A stretch of DNA of 32,754 nucleotides, taken from the NCBI GenBank assembly GCA_903925275.1, contig CAIYES010000131.1:1-32754 (forward strand), in the 5' to 3' direction. The position numbers and the translations under genes were made by a program. Under the pieces are notes generated by a model. That model was not told where the DNA came from, made no database searches, and saw only the letters and a list, made by a program, of their open reading frames with translations. The stretch comes from an uncultured Bacteroidales bacterium. Lineage in GTDB: Bacteria > Bacteroidota > Bacteroidia > Bacteroidales > FEN-979. This document shows, in pieces, positions 20,746 through 32,754 of this stretch (within the stretch, counting starts at the first letter, position 1; each line of letters begins with the position of its first letter).

Positions 20746-20821
20746 GCGGTAGTAGCTCAGATGGTAGAGCATCAGCTTCCCAAGCTGAGGGTCGTGGGTT
20801 CGATCCCCATTTACCGCTCCA
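20746..20821 (+). tRNA. tRNA-Gly (anticodon CCC)
   Basis: The cloverleaf can be drawn by hand. The acceptor stem is GCGGTAG with TTACCGC (one G-T wobble), the D arm includes AGCTCAGATGGTAGAGC, and the anticodon stem TCAGC/GCTGA holds the loop TTCCCAA, so the anticodon is CCC. The T arm GTGGG-TTCGATC-CCCAT follows, with discriminator T and an encoded CCA. It reads Gly codon GGG. It is followed by a hairpin terminator, and the accessory region begins just downstream, so the 3' end is a likely integration site. Confidence 0.96.
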
Positions 20822-20999: not shown

Positions 21000-21146
21000 C
21001 TATAACTTCATCAGCCTGTCAAAAACTCTCTGAGAATATTGGGCCGACAATCCTCCCAAAACAATTGATTTCATCTTCACCTCATCATTCCGGAAATTCT
21101 TTACTCTCTGGAATTAGCCAGCCACAGAATAGGATACACCAATGTT
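21000..21146 (-). pseudogene. Truncated DUF932 gene remnant (C-terminal end only)
   Basis: The minus strand encodes FQRVKNFRNDEVKMKSIVLG and continues GLSAQYSQRVFDRLMKL, ending with TAG at 21000-21002. This is a close copy of the last 40 or so residues of the intact DUF932 gene at 22092-23069 (FQNVKNFSSEEVKMKSIVLG...KLLKY). The reading frame carries a TAA where the intact copy has the tyrosine of SMAGYFQ. Similarity stops abruptly near 21146; the sequence beyond matches no other part of the gene. So this is the tail of a second, diverged copy left by deletion or element replacement. Between it and the next terminator (21147-21401) I see no gene, only AT-rich sequence with a short CCTTGTCC run. 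Confidence 0.85.
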
Positions 21147-22091: not shown

Positions 22092-23069
22092 TCAATATTT
22101 AAGAAGTTTATCAAAAACTCGCTGGCTATACTGAGCAGACAATCCACCAAGAACAATGGATTTCATCTTCACCTCTTCAGAACTGAAGTTCTTTACGTTC
22201 TGGAAATAGCCAGCCATACTATTATACACCCCAAATCCATTCCCGCGAATACTGTCTATCTCAGAAGCCTGGTGGTAGTAATTGACCACCCCCTCCACCA
22301 TATTCGCCTTACGAGTGGATAGTTCAATGTTTCCGGTAAGTGCAAGTGTTTTCAATTCTTCCTTATTCAGGAACGCTCTGGTGATTATTGATTTCATGTC
22401 CCGGTCCGTCACCTTCTTATCATATAGCAGCCGAAAAGCTACTTCCAGTTTATCCAGGTATTCTGAATGCATGCCCATGACCAATGCTGCCTCAACAAAC
22501 CGTTCCTTTACATTCTGGGTATGCTTAATAAACACCCTGTTGGTGTTATTGTTGAAGGCAGCATTGAGCGTATTCTGGCACACAACCCTGACAGGGGTAA
22601 AGAATGCCGTAATAGCCATTGAGCCATCATGTGAGGAACAAAGAACCAGGTAATTTTCAATGGGGCCATCCCTACCAATGACAATCTGCTTTGGTAGTTT
22701 GGCGGTGATGAATAACACTCCGCCCTTTCCAAGGCAACCGGCAGTCTCGTAAATTGCCTGGCCCTGTCCAACAATCTGGTCAAAGAATGAGAATACATCA
22801 CGGTTCTGGACGATGGTATAATCTTTACCAACCATGCCCAGCACGTCGTTGTTATCTTCCCTGACCGTTGCGAAGTAATCCGGAACATCAAGCCCTCGTT
22901 CAGTAAAGAGCTTTTGTTTTTCGACTGTAAAGTCCAGTCCACCAAACTCAATGGCTTCCTGGGCCGTGAATATATGATCCAGGATTTGGCCCAACTTATG
23001 CCAAGCAGGTTCTTTGGCACTTACAAACGAATACCTTTGGGAATCGTTGTTGAAATTCAAATTATGCAT
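22092..23069 (-). CDS. DUF932 phage/plasmid-related protein (TIGR03299-like)
   Basis: The 325-residue product matches the DUF932 family found on phages, plasmids and integrative elements. Family landmarks are the start with FVSAKEPAWHKLGQ, the VGKDYTIVQNRDVFSFFDQI region, GGVLFITAKLP, the central YLVLCSSHDGSMAITAFFTPVRVVCQNTL and the C-terminal FQNVKNFSSEEVKMKSIVLGG. Its biochemical role is unknown; it is usually near replication or recombination genes. Its ATG overlaps the rha stop by 8 bases, so the two are translationally coupled. A decayed partial second copy lies at 21000-21146, so this gene has been duplicated or the site has received related elements more than once. Confidence 0.9.
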   Translation of the reverse strand: MHNLNFNNDSQRYSFVSAKEPAWHKLGQILDHIFTAQEAIEFGGLDFTVEKQKLFTERGLDVPDYFATVREDNNDVLGMVGKDYTIVQNRDVFSFFDQIVGQGQAIYETAGCLGKGGVLFITAKLPKQIVIGRDGPIENYLVLCSSHDGSMAITAFFTPVRVVCQNTLNAAFNNNTNRVFIKHTQNVKERFVEAALVMGMHSEYLDKLEVAFRLLYDKKVTDRDMKSIITRAFLNKEELKTLALTGNIELSTRKANMVEGVVNYYHQASEIDSIRGNGFGVYNSMAGYFQNVKNFSSEEVKMKSIVLGGLSAQYSQRVFDKLLKY

Positions 23070-23862: not shown

Positions 23863-24867
23863 TTATACTTCGATGGTCTCATTTCGCTTCTGGCAATCCA
23901 GGATCGGGCAGGTTGCACACACTTTTGGAATAGCTTGCATCGGCCAGCCTGATCTTTCCCATCCAAGGATGGTTTCAACAACCCATTTGATTGTGCGTTG
24001 AAGTTCATTCAAGCGAATACTGGCTTTGGCAGCTTTCTGAGGATCGGGATCATTGATGTCCGTGATGATCGGGATATCCTTAAACCCTGCATTATCCCTT
24101 TTATAATCAAAGACCAGGTAAACAAAAGGTCTTCCAAAGATTTGCCGGTACATCATTGCTTCGGTAAAATCAGCCATCTCCATATTCCCCCAGGGAGTGC
24201 CATGAAACAATCCGTTACTGAATGATTCAACGACATCCTTGTCCTTGGTCAGTTTCAGGTCAATGGTAGCCGAGGGAAAGGAGTATCCGGGAGTTGTAAT
24301 CGGTGAAACGAAATCCAAGGTGCCATCGAGAAAAACAGGAATTTTCCAGTTGTGGTCCGGATCAACCCAGCGGCGCTTATGGTAAACCTGAGTATGGTTC
24401 TGATCGATTGCCAGACCATAATCTTGTTTCACCTTGAAGAATAGTTCTACAGCCATGTCAATCCTGTCATGGTCTGCAAGTTTAGCCCCTGTTTTCTTAT
24501 GCCGTGGGAGGTCAATAGTCTCACTACCATCAGCAGATAACCCAAGGCATTTGCTCTCAAAATACAACCCCTTGATCATTGAATCCGAAGGTGGTGATAC
24601 AATATCCCGAAGCAGTGAGACATGGTAAACTTTGTATGGGCATACCGGGTATGGTTCTCCTTTATGGATCAGCTGCCGGATAAGTGATTTAGAAACACGG
24701 ATAGCAGTTATCTTTCCTGTTTCCGCTGAAAGGTCGATCTTTGAAGGTAGTTTATCGTTACTGATTACCTCATTGATCTTTTCCACCGGCAGACCGATGA
24801 TCTGGTTGAACAGCCCTACAAATACATTGAACGGGCTATCCCGAATAACTTCATACCTGGGCAGCAT
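23863..24867 (-). CDS. Cas4-like PD-(D/E)XK nuclease with probable 4Fe-4S cluster
   Basis: The protein has the layout of RecB/Cas4-type iron-sulphur exonucleases. Near residue 76 is YPVCPYKVYHVSLL, the usual first cysteine followed by a P-x-x-Y helix. Mid-protein VFLDGTLDFV and SATIDLKLTKD supply the catalytic Asp and D-x-K of the PD-(D/E)XK core, and FTEAMMYRQIFG gives the following helix with a Q. Near the end CATCPILDC supplies the other three cysteines. Such enzymes process DNA ends in recombination or replication. No cas1, cas2 or CRISPR array is present, so this is a stand-alone version. The ORF track begins at a TTG (24873); ATG 24867 gives 334 residues. Its start overlaps the upstream gene's end. 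Confidence 0.85.
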   Translation of the reverse strand: MLPRYEVIRDSPFNVFVGLFNQIIGLPVEKINEVISNDKLPSKIDLSAETGKITAIRVSKSLIRQLIHKGEPYPVCPYKVYHVSLLRDIVSPPSDSMIKGLYFESKCLGLSADGSETIDLPRHKKTGAKLADHDRIDMAVELFFKVKQDYGLAIDQNHTQVYHKRRWVDPDHNWKIPVFLDGTLDFVSPITTPGYSFPSATIDLKLTKDKDVVESFSNGLFHGTPWGNMEMADFTEAMMYRQIFGRPFVYLVFDYKRDNAGFKDIPIITDINDPDPQKAAKASIRLNELQRTIKWVVETILGWERSGWPMQAIPKVCATCPILDCQKRNETIEV

Positions 24868-25498
24868 GACCAATCTGTTTAAGAGGTCTTAAAAGTGCCT
24901 CTGCAGACTCAATTACCTGTTCCATCCGGGTAATTCCAAGGCCGGTGAAGGGTATGCATTCCACGGCAAGCTGCAGGGCATAATACCTCCTGGAAACGAT
25001 ATCACGCATGTGAGGATCATTCTCCAGGACATTGGACAATACCCAGTTGTTATAGATGGTGGCAAGAGTATTGACATCTTCAATGGAACGGGGAGAGATA
25101 CCAGCATTGGTATAATGCTGCCGGGCGATGGTCTGGCACATCGAAAATGCGATCCTTCTTACGACTCCGGGATCATTGTATGATTTGCCGTTTCCATTTC
25201 CATTCCCATTCCCGTTGCCATTCCCGTTCCCGTTTCCCGGAATTCCTCCAAAAGGTTCCAGTTTCTTTACCTTGGTGATATGATTGGAGCCATTGGGGGT
25301 CAGGGATAGTTCGTAGGTGACTGCGGTTCCCGGCAGTAATGGATAAACATCCTTTTCTGACCCGCAGCTTCCGCTAACCCCATCTTCAAAGATGATGGTG
25401 AACCCATAGTTTGTTTTGCCTGTGAACTTGTTCTGCCATGCCTTATGGATGCCGTTCTGCATCTGCGGCGTGACGCTTTTAATAATTGACTGTGCCAT
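24851..25498 (-). CDS. Hypothetical protein with (GN)8 linker; possible OB-fold N-terminus
   Basis: I do not recognise the family. Residues 1-85 look like a compact beta domain (NKFTGKTNYGFTIIFEDGV, GTAVTYELSLTPNG), which could be an OB fold, although this is a weak inference. Residues 88-104 are an uninterrupted Gly-Asn repeat, a flexible linker. Residues 110-215 are helical (RRIAFSMCQTIARQH, VSRRYYALQLAVECIPF). The two-domain design with a flexible linker, and the place between the helicase and the Cas4-like nuclease, would fit a single-strand DNA-binding or recombination mediator role. The gene overlaps the nuclease start by 17 bases. Confidence 0.8.
   Translation of the reverse strand: MAQSIIKSVTPQMQNGIHKAWQNKFTGKTNYGFTIIFEDGVSGSCGSEKDVYPLLPGTAVTYELSLTPNGSNHITKVKKLEPFGGIPGNGNGNGNGNGNGNGNGKSYNDPGVVRRIAFSMCQTIARQHYTNAGISPRSIEDVNTLATIYNNWVLSNVLENDPHMRDIVSRRYYALQLAVECIPFTGLGITRMEQVIESAEALLRPLKQIGHAAQV
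25187..25237. repeat. Hexanucleotide-type microsatellite encoding (GN)8
   Basis: Seventeen codons alternate GGN and AAY on the minus strand, with both GGA/GGG/GGC and AAC/AAT used. The DNA repeats imperfectly every 6 bases. It can expand or contract by slippage without a frameshift. Confidence 0.85.
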
Positions 25499-25545: not shown

Positions 25546-25854
25546 CTAAAATGGAATAGAATCTTTTCCGCTGTTTACCGGCATTGCCAAAGGAACTGTT
25601 GCTGATTGTTCCATCATGATCCCTGCGGGAAGATCCACGTTCATTTTCGTTACAGGTGAACCATTAATCGGGGTTGCTGCCTGTACCGAATCCGTTTTCG
25701 TTACTTCAGGGATGTGATTGCCACCATTGGAGCCTTGGTTGATTTCAAATTCCAGGGCAAGAATCTCTTTGGCAATTGGCAGAGAATCATGTGTAAAATG
25801 CTCGAACACCCGCTTTGCCAGTTGCAGTGCCCGTTTTTCTGTTTCGGTTATCAT
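25546..25854 (-). CDS. Small protein with SSB-like C-terminal tip
   Basis: I do not recognise the family of this 102-residue protein. An N-terminal helix (TETEKRALQLAKRVFEHF, about residues 3-35) is followed by a low-complexity Pro/Thr/Ser/Gly-rich region and the end SGKDSIPF. The last residues D-x-I-P-F match the tip of bacterial single-strand DNA-binding protein (usually DDDIPF), which recruits repair and replication enzymes. There is no OB fold in this protein. It overlaps the helicase stop by 4 bases (ATGA type) and precedes the (GN)8 protein by 47 bases. It may serve as an adaptor to SSB-interacting enzymes; this is inference. Confidence 0.75.
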   Translation of the reverse strand: MITETEKRALQLAKRVFEHFTHDSLPIAKEILALEFEINQGSNGGNHIPEVTKTDSVQAATPINGSPVTKMNVDLPAGIMMEQSATVPLAMPVNSGKDSIPF

Positions 25855-27359
25855 CTTGTTTTCGTTTTTAATTTGTTAATAAACTGTTTCTCATTTGCTT
25901 GAATTGAATCAGGCAAAGGGATCTCCCAGAACTGATCATATGCCATCTCGGTAAAGAAATGTATCAGGGCAGATGAATCGTTAATCTTATTCTCCCTGTT
26001 CTTTCCTGTGTCCACGATAAACATGTGGCTGAGAATGTCATGTTCAGCACCATTGAATTCACTCATAAGGTCTTTGTAGATATTAAAGGAATTGATTAAA
26101 AGCACCTGGTTTGGTGTCCTCCGGAATGTTTCAGATCCTTTCATATCCTTTAATATAGGCCTGTAACCTGTTTGAAGATTTTCCTTGTCCTGTTGGGCAT
26201 CGTTAAAGTGATGAAGCGGAATGATCAATCCCTTCGTCTTCTGCCTGCATTTGAGCAGGTTATGCATCACATGGTTTGAGAATCCGTTGGGATCAAATTT
26301 GAAATCTCCCTGATCATCAAGAGAAAGAATGTTATCTACAACCAGTATGTTAAAACGCTCTTTCCTTTGATCACAGAATTGGACAAAGTGGGTCACTATA
26401 TCATCTGATCTGATAGCCTGGTCAATGAACTCAATGTCGAATTGTTGGAATTCACGAGTAAACCTTTTCATCACATCAATCATTGAATGATCATACTTCA
26501 TGGACTTCAAGTGCTTTGCCGAAATGAAAACCTTGGAGGCGAGGTATGACCTTAGCAAATCCTGTCTGGAATCTTCCAGGGATATCCAGCACACTGAAAT
26601 ATCAGGATACCGTTCCAAGAGCCTGTAAATAATGGTGCGAATAAACCTGCTCTTCCCGGCCGAAGCTGCTCCGGCAATCAGGATGATCTTGTCTTTACCC
26701 AATGAGATCACCTCGTCAAAGCGGGGCCACCCCAGGTTATAGACTATCATCGGCAGCGAGAGCTTTTGGGATTTATTGACTTGGATGGAATCAAACTCAA
26801 TTATCATCTCGTCGGCCAGCCGGTCTGCTGTTGTTGCCACCGTTTCAGACAAAAGTGGGTCGAGCCTTTCCAACTCAGCAATGAAATCCTCCAACAGGTC
26901 AAATACATCTGCTGAATCATTCAAAGCGATATCGGCCTTTTGAATTCCGATCCGGTTGATTTCCCTTTGAAGGAATTTCTGGTATATGATCCGGAACCAG
27001 AATTCTATATTCACTGTACTTGAAATTCTTGATGTCAGCATCGTTATTCCGTAGGCACCCCCAACCAATTCCAGAGTGCCGTTCTTTCTGCACTGTTCGG
27101 TTACGGTCAGAATATCAATCGGAAAATCATGTTCATAAAGGGTTTTGATTGCGTTTAACAATAGTTGGTGAGATTCCTTATAGAAGTATTCCGGCCGTAG
27201 TTTTAGCAGCACTGTCTTTACATGGTCTGCCAGAGATTCCAGCATGATGCTTCCAAGAATTGCCTCTTCAAAATCAATAGCACTGGGTGGACTTTTATCC
27301 TGATGGAAAACCAGATCTGTACTGGATTTTCTTATAACTCTGAAATTATTTTGTTTCAT
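25851..27359 (-). CDS. DnaB-like replicative DNA helicase
   Basis: The 502-residue product has the two DnaB domains. The N-terminal helical domain (about 25-150) shows PPSAIDFEEAILGSIMLE, YFYKESHQLLLNAI and the EQCRKNGTLELVGGAYGI segment. The RecA-like motor (about 185-470) has Walker A ILIAGAASAGKSRF, Walker B NILVVDNIL, and a later GKNRENK near the position of the DnaB arginine-finger loop. The D-x-K-G-S-x-x-F region (LKDMKGSETF) corresponds to the DnaB motif with R-x-x-E-x-x. Sequence divergence from chromosomal DnaB and the neighbours mark it as the element's own helicase. Its start overlaps the upstream 148-residue gene by 14 bases and its stop overlaps the next gene by 4. Confidence 0.9.
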   Translation of the reverse strand: MKQNNFRVIRKSSTDLVFHQDKSPPSAIDFEEAILGSIMLESLADHVKTVLLKLRPEYFYKESHQLLLNAIKTLYEHDFPIDILTVTEQCRKNGTLELVGGAYGITMLTSRISSTVNIEFWFRIIYQKFLQREINRIGIQKADIALNDSADVFDLLEDFIAELERLDPLLSETVATTADRLADEMIIEFDSIQVNKSQKLSLPMIVYNLGWPRFDEVISLGKDKIILIAGAASAGKSRFIRTIIYRLLERYPDISVCWISLEDSRQDLLRSYLASKVFISAKHLKSMKYDHSMIDVMKRFTREFQQFDIEFIDQAIRSDDIVTHFVQFCDQRKERFNILVVDNILSLDDQGDFKFDPNGFSNHVMHNLLKCRQKTKGLIIPLHHFNDAQQDKENLQTGYRPILKDMKGSETFRRTPNQVLLINSFNIYKDLMSEFNGAEHDILSHMFIVDTGKNRENKINDSSALIHFFTEMAYDQFWEIPLPDSIQANEKQFINKLKTKTR

Positions 27360-27792
27360 TTGGAAAATCCTTTCTGAATAGTTCGAGTTGCTTTTTGAGA
27401 TAATCTATAGTGAAGTCCCCAAAAAGATACTTGTTTCGTTCACTTTGTCCGGTACTGATGACAAATTCCCGTTCATATAGTTTATCTCCAATGAAGTCAT
27501 AAAAGCTCTTTCTCAGAGCATAAGCCTTTGTGGGAAAGTATTGCGTCCCAAGTTTCGGCCCATACATCATATTCCACTGGTCGATATGCTGCTTGAACTT
27601 CATAAACAAGAATTCTGATGTCAATGGATTATCCTCAATGGTCATGTTTTTCAGGAACCACGTGAACCTGTTATATGTCTGTTGTAAGTCTCCTTCGGCA
27701 TATATTTCAGACAGAAGTTCCTTGAATTCATCAAAAGATGGAGTTTCGGGCTCACCTCCTTCATTTTGGTCTCCCTTTGTTGTAGTTGACAT
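27346..27792 (-). CDS. Hypothetical protein beside DnaB, possible helicase partner
   Basis: I do not recognise this 148-residue protein. It starts with an acidic, low-complexity stretch (MSTTTKGDQNEGGEPETP), followed by a mostly helical body rich in aromatic residues (QQTYNRFTWFLKNM, FMKFKQHIDQWNMMYG, LRKSFYDFIGDKLYER). No ATP-binding or HTH motif is visible. The 14-base overlap with the helicase suggests coupled translation and perhaps a physical partnership, such as a helicase loader or inhibitor, but no sequence feature proves this. A 15-base gap separates it from radC upstream. Confidence 0.75.
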   Translation of the reverse strand: MSTTTKGDQNEGGEPETPSFDEFKELLSEIYAEGDLQQTYNRFTWFLKNMTIEDNPLTSEFLFMKFKQHIDQWNMMYGPKLGTQYFPTKAYALRKSFYDFIGDKLYEREFVISTGQSERNKYLFGDFTIDYLKKQLELFRKDFPNETK

Positions 27793-27807: not shown

Positions 27808-28557
27808 TTAAATGGCCCCTTCATCGGCGAAAGAGTAAAAGTGGTCATTTGCCAAGATGATGTGATCGAGAACAGTTATTTCCAAAAGAGCTCCGGCATC
27901 AACGAGCTTCTTGGTCATCCTTTGGTCAGCCTCGCTGGGTGTTACAACATTTGAGGGATGGTTGTGGCCCATAATTAATGAGCAGGCATGATGATCAAGT
28001 GCTATCTTGAAGATCTTCTTTGGATCCACGACAGTTCCGGAAATTCCTCCTTCGCTGATCTGAACTTTCTGCAATACCTTGTTGGCCCTGTTCAGCAATA
28101 TGATCCAGAATTCCTCATAAGGTTTATCAGTCAACACCGAGCGGAAGATTTCATATGCATTCCTTGAAGTTGAGATCTTTTCTTTCAAAACAACTTCTGA
28201 GGCACTGCGTCTGCGACCAATTTCAAAGGCTGTAATCACCCGTGTGGCCTGCGCCATTGTGATATTCCCTGTCTTGACCAGGTCATTGACAGATAATTTG
28301 GCAATCTCACCAAGGTTATCAGCGCTATGGTTAAGAATTTGCCGTGCTGAATCCAGACAAGATCTTTTGCGGGAACCATCGTTACCAATTATTATAGAGA
28401 GCAGTTCTGAATCCGATAATGCCAATCTGCCTTTGAGTAGGAACTTTGTGGCTGGCTTGTCATCTTCGCACCACATCTGCATGGGAACGGTGTGTCTGTA
28501 TTCTTTCATGTTGTCACGATTATTACGGATGGGTTGTTTGAAAAGTTCAAGTTGCAT
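27808..28557 (-). CDS. radC: RadC family JAB1/MPN-type protein
   Basis: The 249-residue protein has the RadC layout: an N-terminal helix-hairpin-helix-like part (LLKGRLALSDSELLSIIIGN, LAKLSVNDLVKTGNI) and a C-terminal JAB1/MPN metal-binding domain with the full motif GHNHPSNVVTPSEAD (H-x-H, Ser, Asp) after FWIILLNRANKVL. RadC was once called a DNA repair protein, but its role is not settled; copies on mobile elements are very common and may help in recombination or anti-defence. The start at 28557 (MQLELFKQP) overlaps the upstream gene by 11 bases. Confidence 0.92.
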   Translation of the reverse strand: MQLELFKQPIRNNRDNMKEYRHTVPMQMWCEDDKPATKFLLKGRLALSDSELLSIIIGNDGSRKRSCLDSARQILNHSADNLGEIAKLSVNDLVKTGNITMAQATRVITAFEIGRRRSASEVVLKEKISTSRNAYEIFRSVLTDKPYEEFWIILLNRANKVLQKVQISEGGISGTVVDPKKIFKIALDHHACSLIMGHNHPSNVVTPSEADQRMTKKLVDAGALLEITVLDHIILANDHFYSFADEGAI

Positions 28558-29897: not shown

Positions 29898-32754
29898 ATG
29901 AAAATAGGACTTTTATTAATAAACTTTCTCTTATTATTTCCCGAATATATAGTTGCCCAGCAACCAATGTTAACTGTTAACACCGGTCATGCAAATCTAA
30001 TAAGTTCTGTTTGCTTCAGCAATGATGGGAAATATGCTTTATCTGGTTCTTGGGATGCAACATTAAAATTATGGGATATTGCGACTGGAAAAGAAATACG
30101 ATCTTTTTTAGGGCATTCAAATTGTGTTACATCTGTACAATTTAGCCCCGATGGGAAATATGCTTTATCTGGTTCCTGGGATAAAACATTAAAATTATGG
30201 GATATTGCGACAGGCAGAGAAGTTCGTTCATTCAAGGGACATAATGAGAGTGTCAACTCAGTCTGTTTCAGCCCAGATGGGCAGTATGCTATATCTGGAT
30301 CAGGGGATCAAACAATTAATTTATGGGAGATATCTACAGGAAAAAAAATAAAATCTTTCATACGATTTTCAAAAGGCTTTGAAAGCATTAAATCTATCTG
30401 TATTAGTCAAGATGGAAAATATATTTTATCAGGATCATGGGGTGGTAAAATAAGACTGTGGGATATGACATCTGGGAATGAACTGCTTTCTCTTATTGGT
30501 CATAATCAAGAAATATGTTCAGTATGTTTTAGCCCTGATGGGAAATACGCTTTATCTGGATCAGCGGATAAAACTATCAAATTATGGGATATTACAACTG
30601 GAAAGGAAATCCGTTCTTTCATTGGCCATACTGAGAGTGTCAATTCAGTTTGTTTCAGTCCAGATGGAAAATATGCATTATCTGGGTCACATGATAAAAC
30701 TATCAAATTATGGGACATTACAACTGGAAAAGAAATCCGTTCGTTTTATGGACACTCATGTTTCGTTAATTCTGTTTGTTTCAGTCCTGATGGTAAATAT
30801 GCTTTATCCGGATCTGGTGCATGGAACGGTAATAGTAAATTTGATAATACATTAAAGCTATGGGATATTTCGACCGGAAAAGAAATCCGTTCGTATATTG
30901 GGTATACGGATAATGTTAATTCCGTTTGTTTTAGTGCTAATGGAAAGTATTTTATATCTGGGTTAGGTGATAAAACTATCAAATTATGGGATATCTCAAA
31001 TGGAAAAATAATTCGTTCGTTTATTGGACATTCGGAGGCTGTGACTTCTGCCTGCTTTAGTCCGGATGGGAAACATGTTTTATCCGGATCTTCTGATAAT
31101 ACAGTAAAATTATGGGATATTTCTACCGGGAAAGAAATCCGTTCATTTACCGGCCATAAAATTGGTGTTCATTCTGTTAGTTTCAGTCCTGATGGTAAAT
31201 ATGCCTTATCTGTGTCTGATTATCCGAATGAGATCTTGAAATTTTGGGATATCTCAACCGGGAAAGAGATTCGTTCAATTATTGGAAATTCAAAAATTTA
31301 TGGATTATTTTTTATTAGCCTTGACAGTATAGTTGCTTTAAAACTTTCTCAGGAGAATAGAATAAACCTTATAAATATTTCTACCGGGAAAGAAATCCGT
31401 TCGTTTATCGGTCATTCAAACTCAGTTGAGTCTGTTTGTTTCAGTAATGATGGTAAATATGTCTTATCCGGTTCTTTGGATGAGACAATGAAATTATGGG
31501 ATATTTCTACCGGAAAAGGAATTCATTCGTTTGGTGGACAATCGGGAGCAGTGCATTTTGTTTGTTTTAGTCCTAACGGTCAATATGCATTATCAGGGGC
31601 ACATGAGTCAACGACCCTATGGGAAATCTCAACAGGAAAAAAAATTAGTTCGTTTGTAGGACAATTGGATTACGGCACATCTGTTTCCTTTACACCAGAA
31701 GGTAAATACATTTTATCAGGTTCAAAAAATGGCAACATGAAGATTTGGAATTCAGGTACAGGTGAATTATTATTAACGATTTATCAATTAAGGAATTCTG
31801 ATGATTGGGTTGCAGTGACTCCAGATGGAAGGTTCGATGGTACTCAAAAAGGAATGAATTTATTATATTATGTAATGGGAATGGAAATAATTCCTTTGGA
31901 AAGCACATTCGAACAATTTTATACTCCTAATTTAATTGCACGAGTAATGTCAGGGGAATCGTTTTCTACGATTGAAATTAAAATTAGAGATTTGAAATCA
32001 CCGCCATCAGTAAAAATAATAACACCCATTGACAAATCAATTACCAGCAAGAATCGATTAACTGTTAATGTAAATGTAATTGATAAAGGTGGTGGTATCG
32101 ATGAAATCCGTTTATACCATAACGGAAAATTAATTGAAAACACTCAACGAGGATTTAAACCAATATCACAAACAGGTAGCGCCCAAGAACAAAGTTTTAA
32201 CATCACTTTAGTGAATGGTCAAAATAAGATTAAAGCAACATCTTTCAATAATGAGCGAACCGAGTCAATTCCTGATGAGATAACGGTTTTCTATAATGGC
32301 ACTGCTTTAAAACCCTGCTTACATCTTTTTGTTATTGGCATCAATTCATTTAAAAACCCTAAATATAATCTTAATTATGCTATCCAAGATGCACAGTCAT
32401 TGTCACAAGAAATTCAAGTCGGTTGTAAAGGTATTGTCGAAAAGGTGGTACCCTATATTTTACTGGATGAAAAAGCGACAAAGCTAAATATCCTAAGCAC
32501 CATTAGCCAGATCAAATCTACATCTAAGGAAGAAGATATCTTCGTATTCTATTATGCAGGTCATGGTGTCATGAGTGTTGATGAATCATCAACTTTTTAC
32601 ATAATCCCATGGGATGTCACCCAACTATATGGCAACAACGCAATACTCAAAGAAAAGGCTATTTCTGCAGAAGAGTTAAAGACCTTTTCAAAGGAAATCC
32701 AGGCACGAAAGCAATTATTCATAATGGATGCATGTCAATCGGGTGGAATTGTTG
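29898..32754 (+). CDS. Exported WD40-repeat caspase-like (peptidase C14) protein, 3' end outside window
   Basis: The frame is open from ATG 29898 to the window end (952 codons) and is missing from the ORF track only because no stop occurs. Residues 1-21 (MKIGLLLINFLLLFPEYIVAQ) form a Sec signal peptide. Residues about 31-627 hold 14 WD40 repeats of 42 residues on average, with consensus SVCFSPDGKYALSGS-x-D-x-T-x-KLWDISTGKEIRSF-x-GH, enough for two seven-bladed propellers; repeats 4, 11 and 13 are degenerate and repeat 7 has an insertion. Next comes WVAVTPDGRFDGT, a segment common before caspase domains in bacterial WD40 proteins. An Ig-like domain (about 695-800) follows. The caspase domain starts near 807 (CLHLFVIGINSF) with His889 in YYAGHGV and Cys946 in DACQSGG. 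A secreted or periplasmic cysteine protease sensing a ligand through the propellers is the inference; targets are unknown. Confidence 0.93.
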   Translation, partial: MKIGLLLINFLLLFPEYIVAQQPMLTVNTGHANLISSVCFSNDGKYALSGSWDATLKLWDIATGKEIRSFLGHSNCVTSVQFSPDGKYALSGSWDKTLKLWDIATGREVRSFKGHNESVNSVCFSPDGQYAISGSGDQTINLWEISTGKKIKSFIRFSKGFESIKSICISQDGKYILSGSWGGKIRLWDMTSGNELLSLIGHNQEICSVCFSPDGKYALSGSADKTIKLWDITTGKEIRSFIGHTESVNSVCFSPDGKYALSGSHDKTIKLWDITTGKEIRSFYGHSCFVNSVCFSPDGKYALSGSGAWNGNSKFDNTLKLWDISTGKEIRSYIGYTDNVNSVCFSANGKYFISGLGDKTIKLWDISNGKIIRSFIGHSEAVTSACFSPDGKHVLSGSSDNTVKLWDISTGKEIRSFTGHKIGVHSVSFSPDGKYALSVSDYPNEILKFWDISTGKEIRSIIGNSKIYGLFFISLDSIVALKLSQENRINLINISTGKEIRSFIGHSNSVESVCFSNDGKYVLSGSLDETMKLWDISTGKGIHSFGGQSGAVHFVCFSPNGQYALSGAHESTTLWEISTGKKISSFVGQLDYGTSVSFTPEGKYILSGSKNGNMKIWNSGTGELLLTIYQLRNSDDWVAVTPDGRFDGTQKGMNLLYYVMGMEIIPLESTFEQFYTPNLIARVMSGESFSTIEIKIRDLKSPPSVKIITPIDKSITSKNRLTVNVNVIDKGGGIDEIRLYHNGKLIENTQRGFKPISQTGSAQEQSFNITLVNGQNKIKATSFNNERTESIPDEITVFYNGTALKPCLHLFVIGINSFKNPKYNLNYAIQDAQSLSQEIQVGCKGIVEKVVPYILLDEKATKLNILSTISQIKSTSKEEDIFVFYYAGHGVMSVDESSTFYIIPWDVTQLYGNNAILKEKAISAEELKTFSKEIQARKQLFIMDACQSGGIV

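Follow-up and report, generated by a model that had tools for sequence, protein, structure and literature searches.

Organization of the Locus

The window (the whole 32,754-nucleotide stretch of DNA analyzed here, from an uncultured Bacteroidales bacterium) carries a module of minus-strand genes (Table 1), one of which encodes a small protein that we call the tip protein after the motif at its C terminus. On its upstream side lie the genes for a DnaB-type helicase and then for a 148-residue protein and a RadC protein; downstream are those for proteins of 215 and 336 residues, a Rha/ANT regulator, and a DUF932 protein. The module region comes after a tRNA-Gly gene (20746–20821). Tyrosine integrases adjoin relatives of the module at loci L047 and L084, and the module is therefore most likely an integrative element. 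A 124-nt direct repeat, its copies 77% identical, occupies 21019–21142 and 22111–22234, the second falling within the DUF932 gene at its 3' end; the first could thus be left over from another copy of the element. At 29898–32753, a WD40-repeat protein of at least 952 residues runs past the contig end, and its C-terminal region looks caspase-like by eye (YYAGHG, DACQSGG).

Table 1. Features of the module in the window
Feature	Position	Strand	Description and basis
RadC-family protein	27808..28557	minus	Pfam RadC 8.2e-41
148-aa conserved protein	27346..27792	minus	Precedes DnaB; L047, L048, L049, and the L050 phage have a similar gene at this position
DnaB-type replicative helicase	25851..27359	minus	502 aa; Pfam DnaB 1.9e-21, DnaB_C 1.2e-11; PHROG 19
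ATGA overlap	25851..25854	minus	Helicase stop and tip-protein start; sequence
Tip protein	25546..25854	minus	102 aa, ATG start; helical hairpin, disordered linker, and SSB-type tip
Tip protein, residues 1–40	25735..25854	minus	Conserved helical hairpin; AlphaFold, pooled dN/dS
Tip protein, residues 41–96	25567..25734	minus	Variable disordered linker; low pLDDT, pooled dN/dS, varying length
Tip protein, residues 97–102	25549..25566	minus	KDSIPF, SSB-type C-terminal tip; codons and conservation in eight members as [DE][DES][ILFV]P[FLY]
215-aa protein	24851..25498	minus	OB-like barrel (residues 2–79), Gly/Asn-rich spacer, four-helix C-terminal domain; AlphaFold, Foldseek, homologues
336-aa protein	23863..24873	minus	Probable PD-(D/E)XK nuclease; four invariant Cys (78, 319, 322, 327) and D205-x-K207; alignment
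DUF932 protein	22092..23069	minus	Last conserved gene of the module; Pfam DUF932 3.1e-51; same place in relatives

The helicase itself lacks a tip, ending KLKTKTR. Its stop codon shares an ATGA with the start of the tip gene, an overlap also present in L047 and replaced by a gap in L048, and this arrangement suggests that the two genes are translationally coupled. A frameshifted fusion of helicase and tip was considered and rejected, inspection of the overlap by eye having revealed no recognized slippery site.

The initial annotation had proposed that the gene following the tip gene encodes a separate protein with a possible OB domain, and the structure model supports this. In an AlphaFold model built from nine sequences (mean pLDDT 81.7), the 215-residue protein has strands at residues 2–79 and four helices at 110–208. 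Foldseek searches of the PDB with the barrel gave many matches to OB folds (such as S12, cold-shock protein, Teb1, RPA, and RecO), all of them weak (E about 0.03–0.2); the stronger matches in BFVD are uncharacterized viral proteins, and Pfam gave no PF00436 match. The protein has no tip, ending IGHAAQV. Two of its relatives have endings that are faintly tip-like compared with the IGHAAQV of the others: FSDEPQF in L065 (1840–2484, an EEVPY-type locus) and FTDEPPF in L096 (1474–1941). In the 336-residue protein, the four cysteines and the D-x-K motif are invariant across five sequences; it matches nothing in Pfam or in PDB sequences and is a probable PD-(D/E)XK nuclease, Cas4-like by motif only.

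The Tip Protein and Selection on Its C Terminus

The tip gene closes with the codons GGA AAA GAT TCT ATT CCA TTT TAG, that is, G-K-D-S-I-P-F-stop. An AlphaFold model based on an alignment of eight sequences shows helices at residues 4–22 and 24–40 (pLDDT about 71–81) and disorder from about residue 41 on. Members of the SSB family (PF00436) have an OB domain in the same chain; here, as the initial annotation had claimed, there is none, the model consisting of two helices and disorder and searches of Pfam, PHROGs, and PADLOC giving no family match. The acidic-hydrophobic-Pro-Phe tip of SSBs, the other mark of that family, is present (KDSIPF; DDLPF and DDFPF in relatives, with EDFPL and EEVPY as variants). 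In the same genome the SSB has the ending MPEDDLPF, and the endings of the host SSBs are EDDLPF or DDDLPF; the likeness to an SSB tip that had first been noticed in D-S-I-P-F is thus confirmed at the level of sequence.

A single such ending means little. In the window's genome, D-x-[FILMV]-P-F-stop is found 23 times and the reversed pattern 27 times, so there is no enrichment, and we dropped the argument from the lone sequence in favor of conservation. Including the window's copy, eight family members have a readable C terminus, ending DSIPF, DDLPF, EDFPL, DDFPF (three members), and EEVPY (two). Conservation in homologues had been set beforehand as the test on which the reading could fail; the tip is kept, and in no homologue do residues follow it, one ending in PL and two in PY. 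Like other carriers of SSB-Ct-type motifs, the family thus holds its motif at the extreme C terminus, conserved over a variable linker, and this conservation places the tip above chance.

Several measures describe the constraint. Pooled over all eight members, dN/dS is lowest in the helical part (0.11), somewhat higher across the last six codons (0.17, a figure that rests on few sites), and highest in the linker (0.51); because a tip-only estimate from six codons is saturated in some groupings, we relied instead on codon comparison and column scores. The last five columns have a mean BLOSUM62 score of 3.74, whereas 20,000 random draws of linker columns never exceeded 0.54. Such draws overstate independence, the sequences being related, but tip and linker clearly differ within one and the same set of proteins. 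The two EEVPY members encode it as GAG GAG GTT CCG TAT (L065) and GAA GAA GTG CCC TAT (L070), four of five codons differing and every change being synonymous. Because conservation covers the helical part and the last five residues but does not extend to the linker, and one pair shows only synonymous changes in the tip, the coding sequences indicate that the tip is a selected feature under purifying selection.

The 40 helical residues are the most conserved segment of all and are likely a docking or oligomerization part. This bears on the suggestion of the initial annotation that the protein is a decoy or adaptor, because strong conservation of the helical part suggests a specific docking partner. 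A decoy would fill the SSB-tip pockets of host enzymes with free tip, lowering host repair or replication to the element's benefit; a small, soluble protein bearing the tip could compete with SSB in this way, and the family is element-encoded, as the integrase genes in L047 and L084 indicate. Yet the strongest constraint falls on the hairpin rather than the tip, the gene sits within a replication operon, and a decoy would need to be abundant. A pure decoy thus fits less well than an adaptor, and we regard it as distinctly improbable.

A conserved C-terminal motif could also serve a contact internal to the element, such as one with the nuclease or with the helical domain of the OB protein, in which case its resemblance to the SSB tip would be accidental. 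EEVPY and EDFPL do depart from the strict host motif, but the order acidic-hydrophobic-Pro-Phe matches host SSB tips and resembles those of host DnaBs, and other proteins of the same loci lack the motif except for one OB-protein relative ending DEPPF. In the loci collected for this comparison, with 312 distinct predicted proteins of 100 residues or more, acidic-x-P-[FYL] endings occur only on SSBs, DnaBs, members of the tip-protein family, and that one relative. An internal contact therefore seems to us improbable.

Distribution of the Family and Gene Order

The seven further copies came from a helicase search of the 43 genomes of the taxonomic family, followed by a search with a tip-protein alignment, and from a nuclease scan of genome contigs. 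All eight members belong to one genus, and one of them (L062) has a frameshift near its start. As a lone query, the tip protein found nothing convincing beyond its genus, and a class-wide profile search (395 genomes, drawn evenly) matched only the window's own genome, so weak matches in other genera look like chance and were rejected. In viral contigs, scans with single proteins and with alignments revealed nothing related to the tip protein, the OB protein, the nuclease, or the helicase; a phage collection had only distant DnaBs and nothing for the OB protein or nuclease; a sequence search of the PDB gave nothing useful. One genome (G410, CAIQUS contigs 16, 164, 233, and 241) has four tip-gene copies on separate contigs.

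Gene order separates the loci into several arrangements. The window, L047, and L048 share the order RadC, 148-aa protein, DnaB, tip, OB, nuclease, L048 having an additional 81-aa ORF that separates the tip and OB genes. L053/L084, L062/L083, and L065/L082 have RadC, tip, OB, and nuclease with no DnaB, a surface-protein-like gene standing between RadC and tip in L062. L049 has DnaB, an inserted foreign gene, and tip, with no OB gene, and in L070 the tip gene is followed by a truncated OB gene. The tip gene thus precedes the OB gene (counting the truncated one) in seven of eight loci, directly so in the window, L047, L053, L062, L065, and L070, whereas the helicase is kept in only four. In this small sample, with many copies decaying, the tip gene goes with the OB gene more consistently than with DnaB. 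Of the genomes covered by the helicase search, G411 and G415 each have a single DnaB-family gene, the chromosomal one, and no element-type DnaB.

At L063, L064, L067, L069, and L071, the tip gene breaks off after its first 28 to roughly 40 codons. In eight loci, a divergent surface-protein-like gene starts roughly 20–140 bp upstream of the tip gene (L049 11143–12030; L062 1437–2183; L063 1813–3291; L064 1738–2637; L067 1690–2556; L069 1726–2613; L070 193–1362; L071 3–1403); the two that were checked resemble Lcl_C, one below its cut-off. With the tip gene cut short in five of these loci, the junction looks as if it were a recurrent point of insertion or recombination.

DnaB Tails across Bacteroidota

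Chromosomal DnaB genes (L021–L046, L100–L133, and L135–L174) encode a tail of related form. The last two residues are PF in 28 of 30 proteins from the family, in 26 of 28 from the rest of the class, and in 31 of 41 from the other classes of the phylum (85 of 99 together), and nearly all of these have acidic residues just before; five of the remainder end in PI. By sequence, this appears to be a looser form of the SSB tip. Escherichia coli DnaB, the sole outgroup compared, has no tip and ends AGPQYDDE. Among open-license papers, we found none describing the phylum-wide DnaB tip.

The element DnaBs lack the acidic-x-P-F ending. It is possible that the element DnaB lost an SSB-like tip and that the overlapping gene now supplies it as a separate, helicase-bound subunit. 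Host DnaBs are tipped, those of the elements are not, and the phage relative L050 lacks a tip gene and has a DnaB whose own ending is DPKDPVPF; this mechanism is therefore a real alternative to an SSB function divided over two proteins, and the ATGA overlap, in the window and L047, would couple the two genes. However, the gene persists with its tip intact in elements that have no DnaB (L053, L065, and L070), and elsewhere it is separated from DnaB by a gap (L048) or a foreign gene (L049). We consider a DnaB tail supplied in trans rather unlikely on this balance.

Discussion

The reading that we favor, with about as much confidence as doubt, is that the tip protein is a small adaptor that recruits host enzymes that bind the SSB tip, and that its partner is most likely the adjacent OB protein. 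The adaptor would belong to the replication/recombination module of the element. Its N-terminal hairpin would dock on an element-encoded partner, of which the adjacent protein, with an OB-like barrel and no tip, is the most likely, and the linker, modeled as disordered, would serve as a tether. The last five residues, copying the SSB tip of the cell, would bind the same class of pocket in host primase, PriA, RecO, or RecQ, so that host enzymes would be brought to the single-stranded DNA or fork of the element. Together, the tip and OB proteins would do the job of one SSB polypeptide.

Several observations lead to this reading. First, conservation of the tip contrasts with drift of the linker, as the synonymous codons of L065 and L070 exemplify. 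Second, the tip resembles the EDDLPF of host SSBs. Third, the adjacent protein is modeled as an OB barrel and helical domain with no tip. Fourth, the tip gene precedes the OB gene, including in L053, L062, and L065, where no helicase lies between RadC and tip; the division of an SSB function over two proteins, as originally suggested, is thus plausible on the strength of the OB-like neighbor and its adjacency in most loci, with the DnaB tail as its rival. SSB-Ct pockets recognize the terminal Phe carboxylate together with acidic residues, and in DnaG the carboxylate is held by a salt bridge and the acidic residues by a basic rim (PMC5872125). These features are mostly kept in the endings of the family and would fit binding of this kind.

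Other observations weigh against an adaptor. Classical SSB-Ct binding may be weaker in the two relatives that end in PY and the one that ends in PL. In the phage relative L050 and in the distant L013, OB and nuclease genes occur with no tip-protein homologue, L055 has no tip gene within the 94 bases before its OB gene, and L049 has a tip gene and no OB gene. The family is also small and found in one genus only.

The arrangement can be compared with three known tails. Like the bacterial SSB tail (an IDL and SSB-Ct, DDDIPF), the tip protein has a variable disordered linker that ends with acidic-hydrophobic-Pro-Phe at the very C terminus; unlike it, there is no OB domain in the chain, a 40-residue helical hairpin stands in its place, and some relatives end in PL or PY. 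Chromosomal Bacteroidota DnaBs, known here from sequence, likewise end a variable tail with an acidic stretch and x-P-F, and the element has a DnaB next door, but there the tip is covalently part of the helicase, whereas in the element it is a separate protein. In an engineered PriB-SSBc chimera, an SSB tail placed on another OB protein alters its properties and further stimulates PriA (PMC8509808); that fusion is covalent and artificial, in contrast to the natural, separate tail of the element.

The motif is thus of a known kind, and what appears to be new is a variant in which a small, separate protein of the element carries it. More tentatively, and with the balance of probability against it, the SSB-type tip might be a portable module, carried in cis on SSB and DnaB across the phylum and on a separate adaptor in a mobile element, by which host enzymes would be recruited to helicase and single-stranded DNA. 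If the adaptor reading is true, the SSB tip, usually regarded as belonging to SSB, can serve as a recruiting module that is detachable from it, and the phylum-wide tip of DnaB raises the question of which replisome enzymes are bound by the helicase's own tip.
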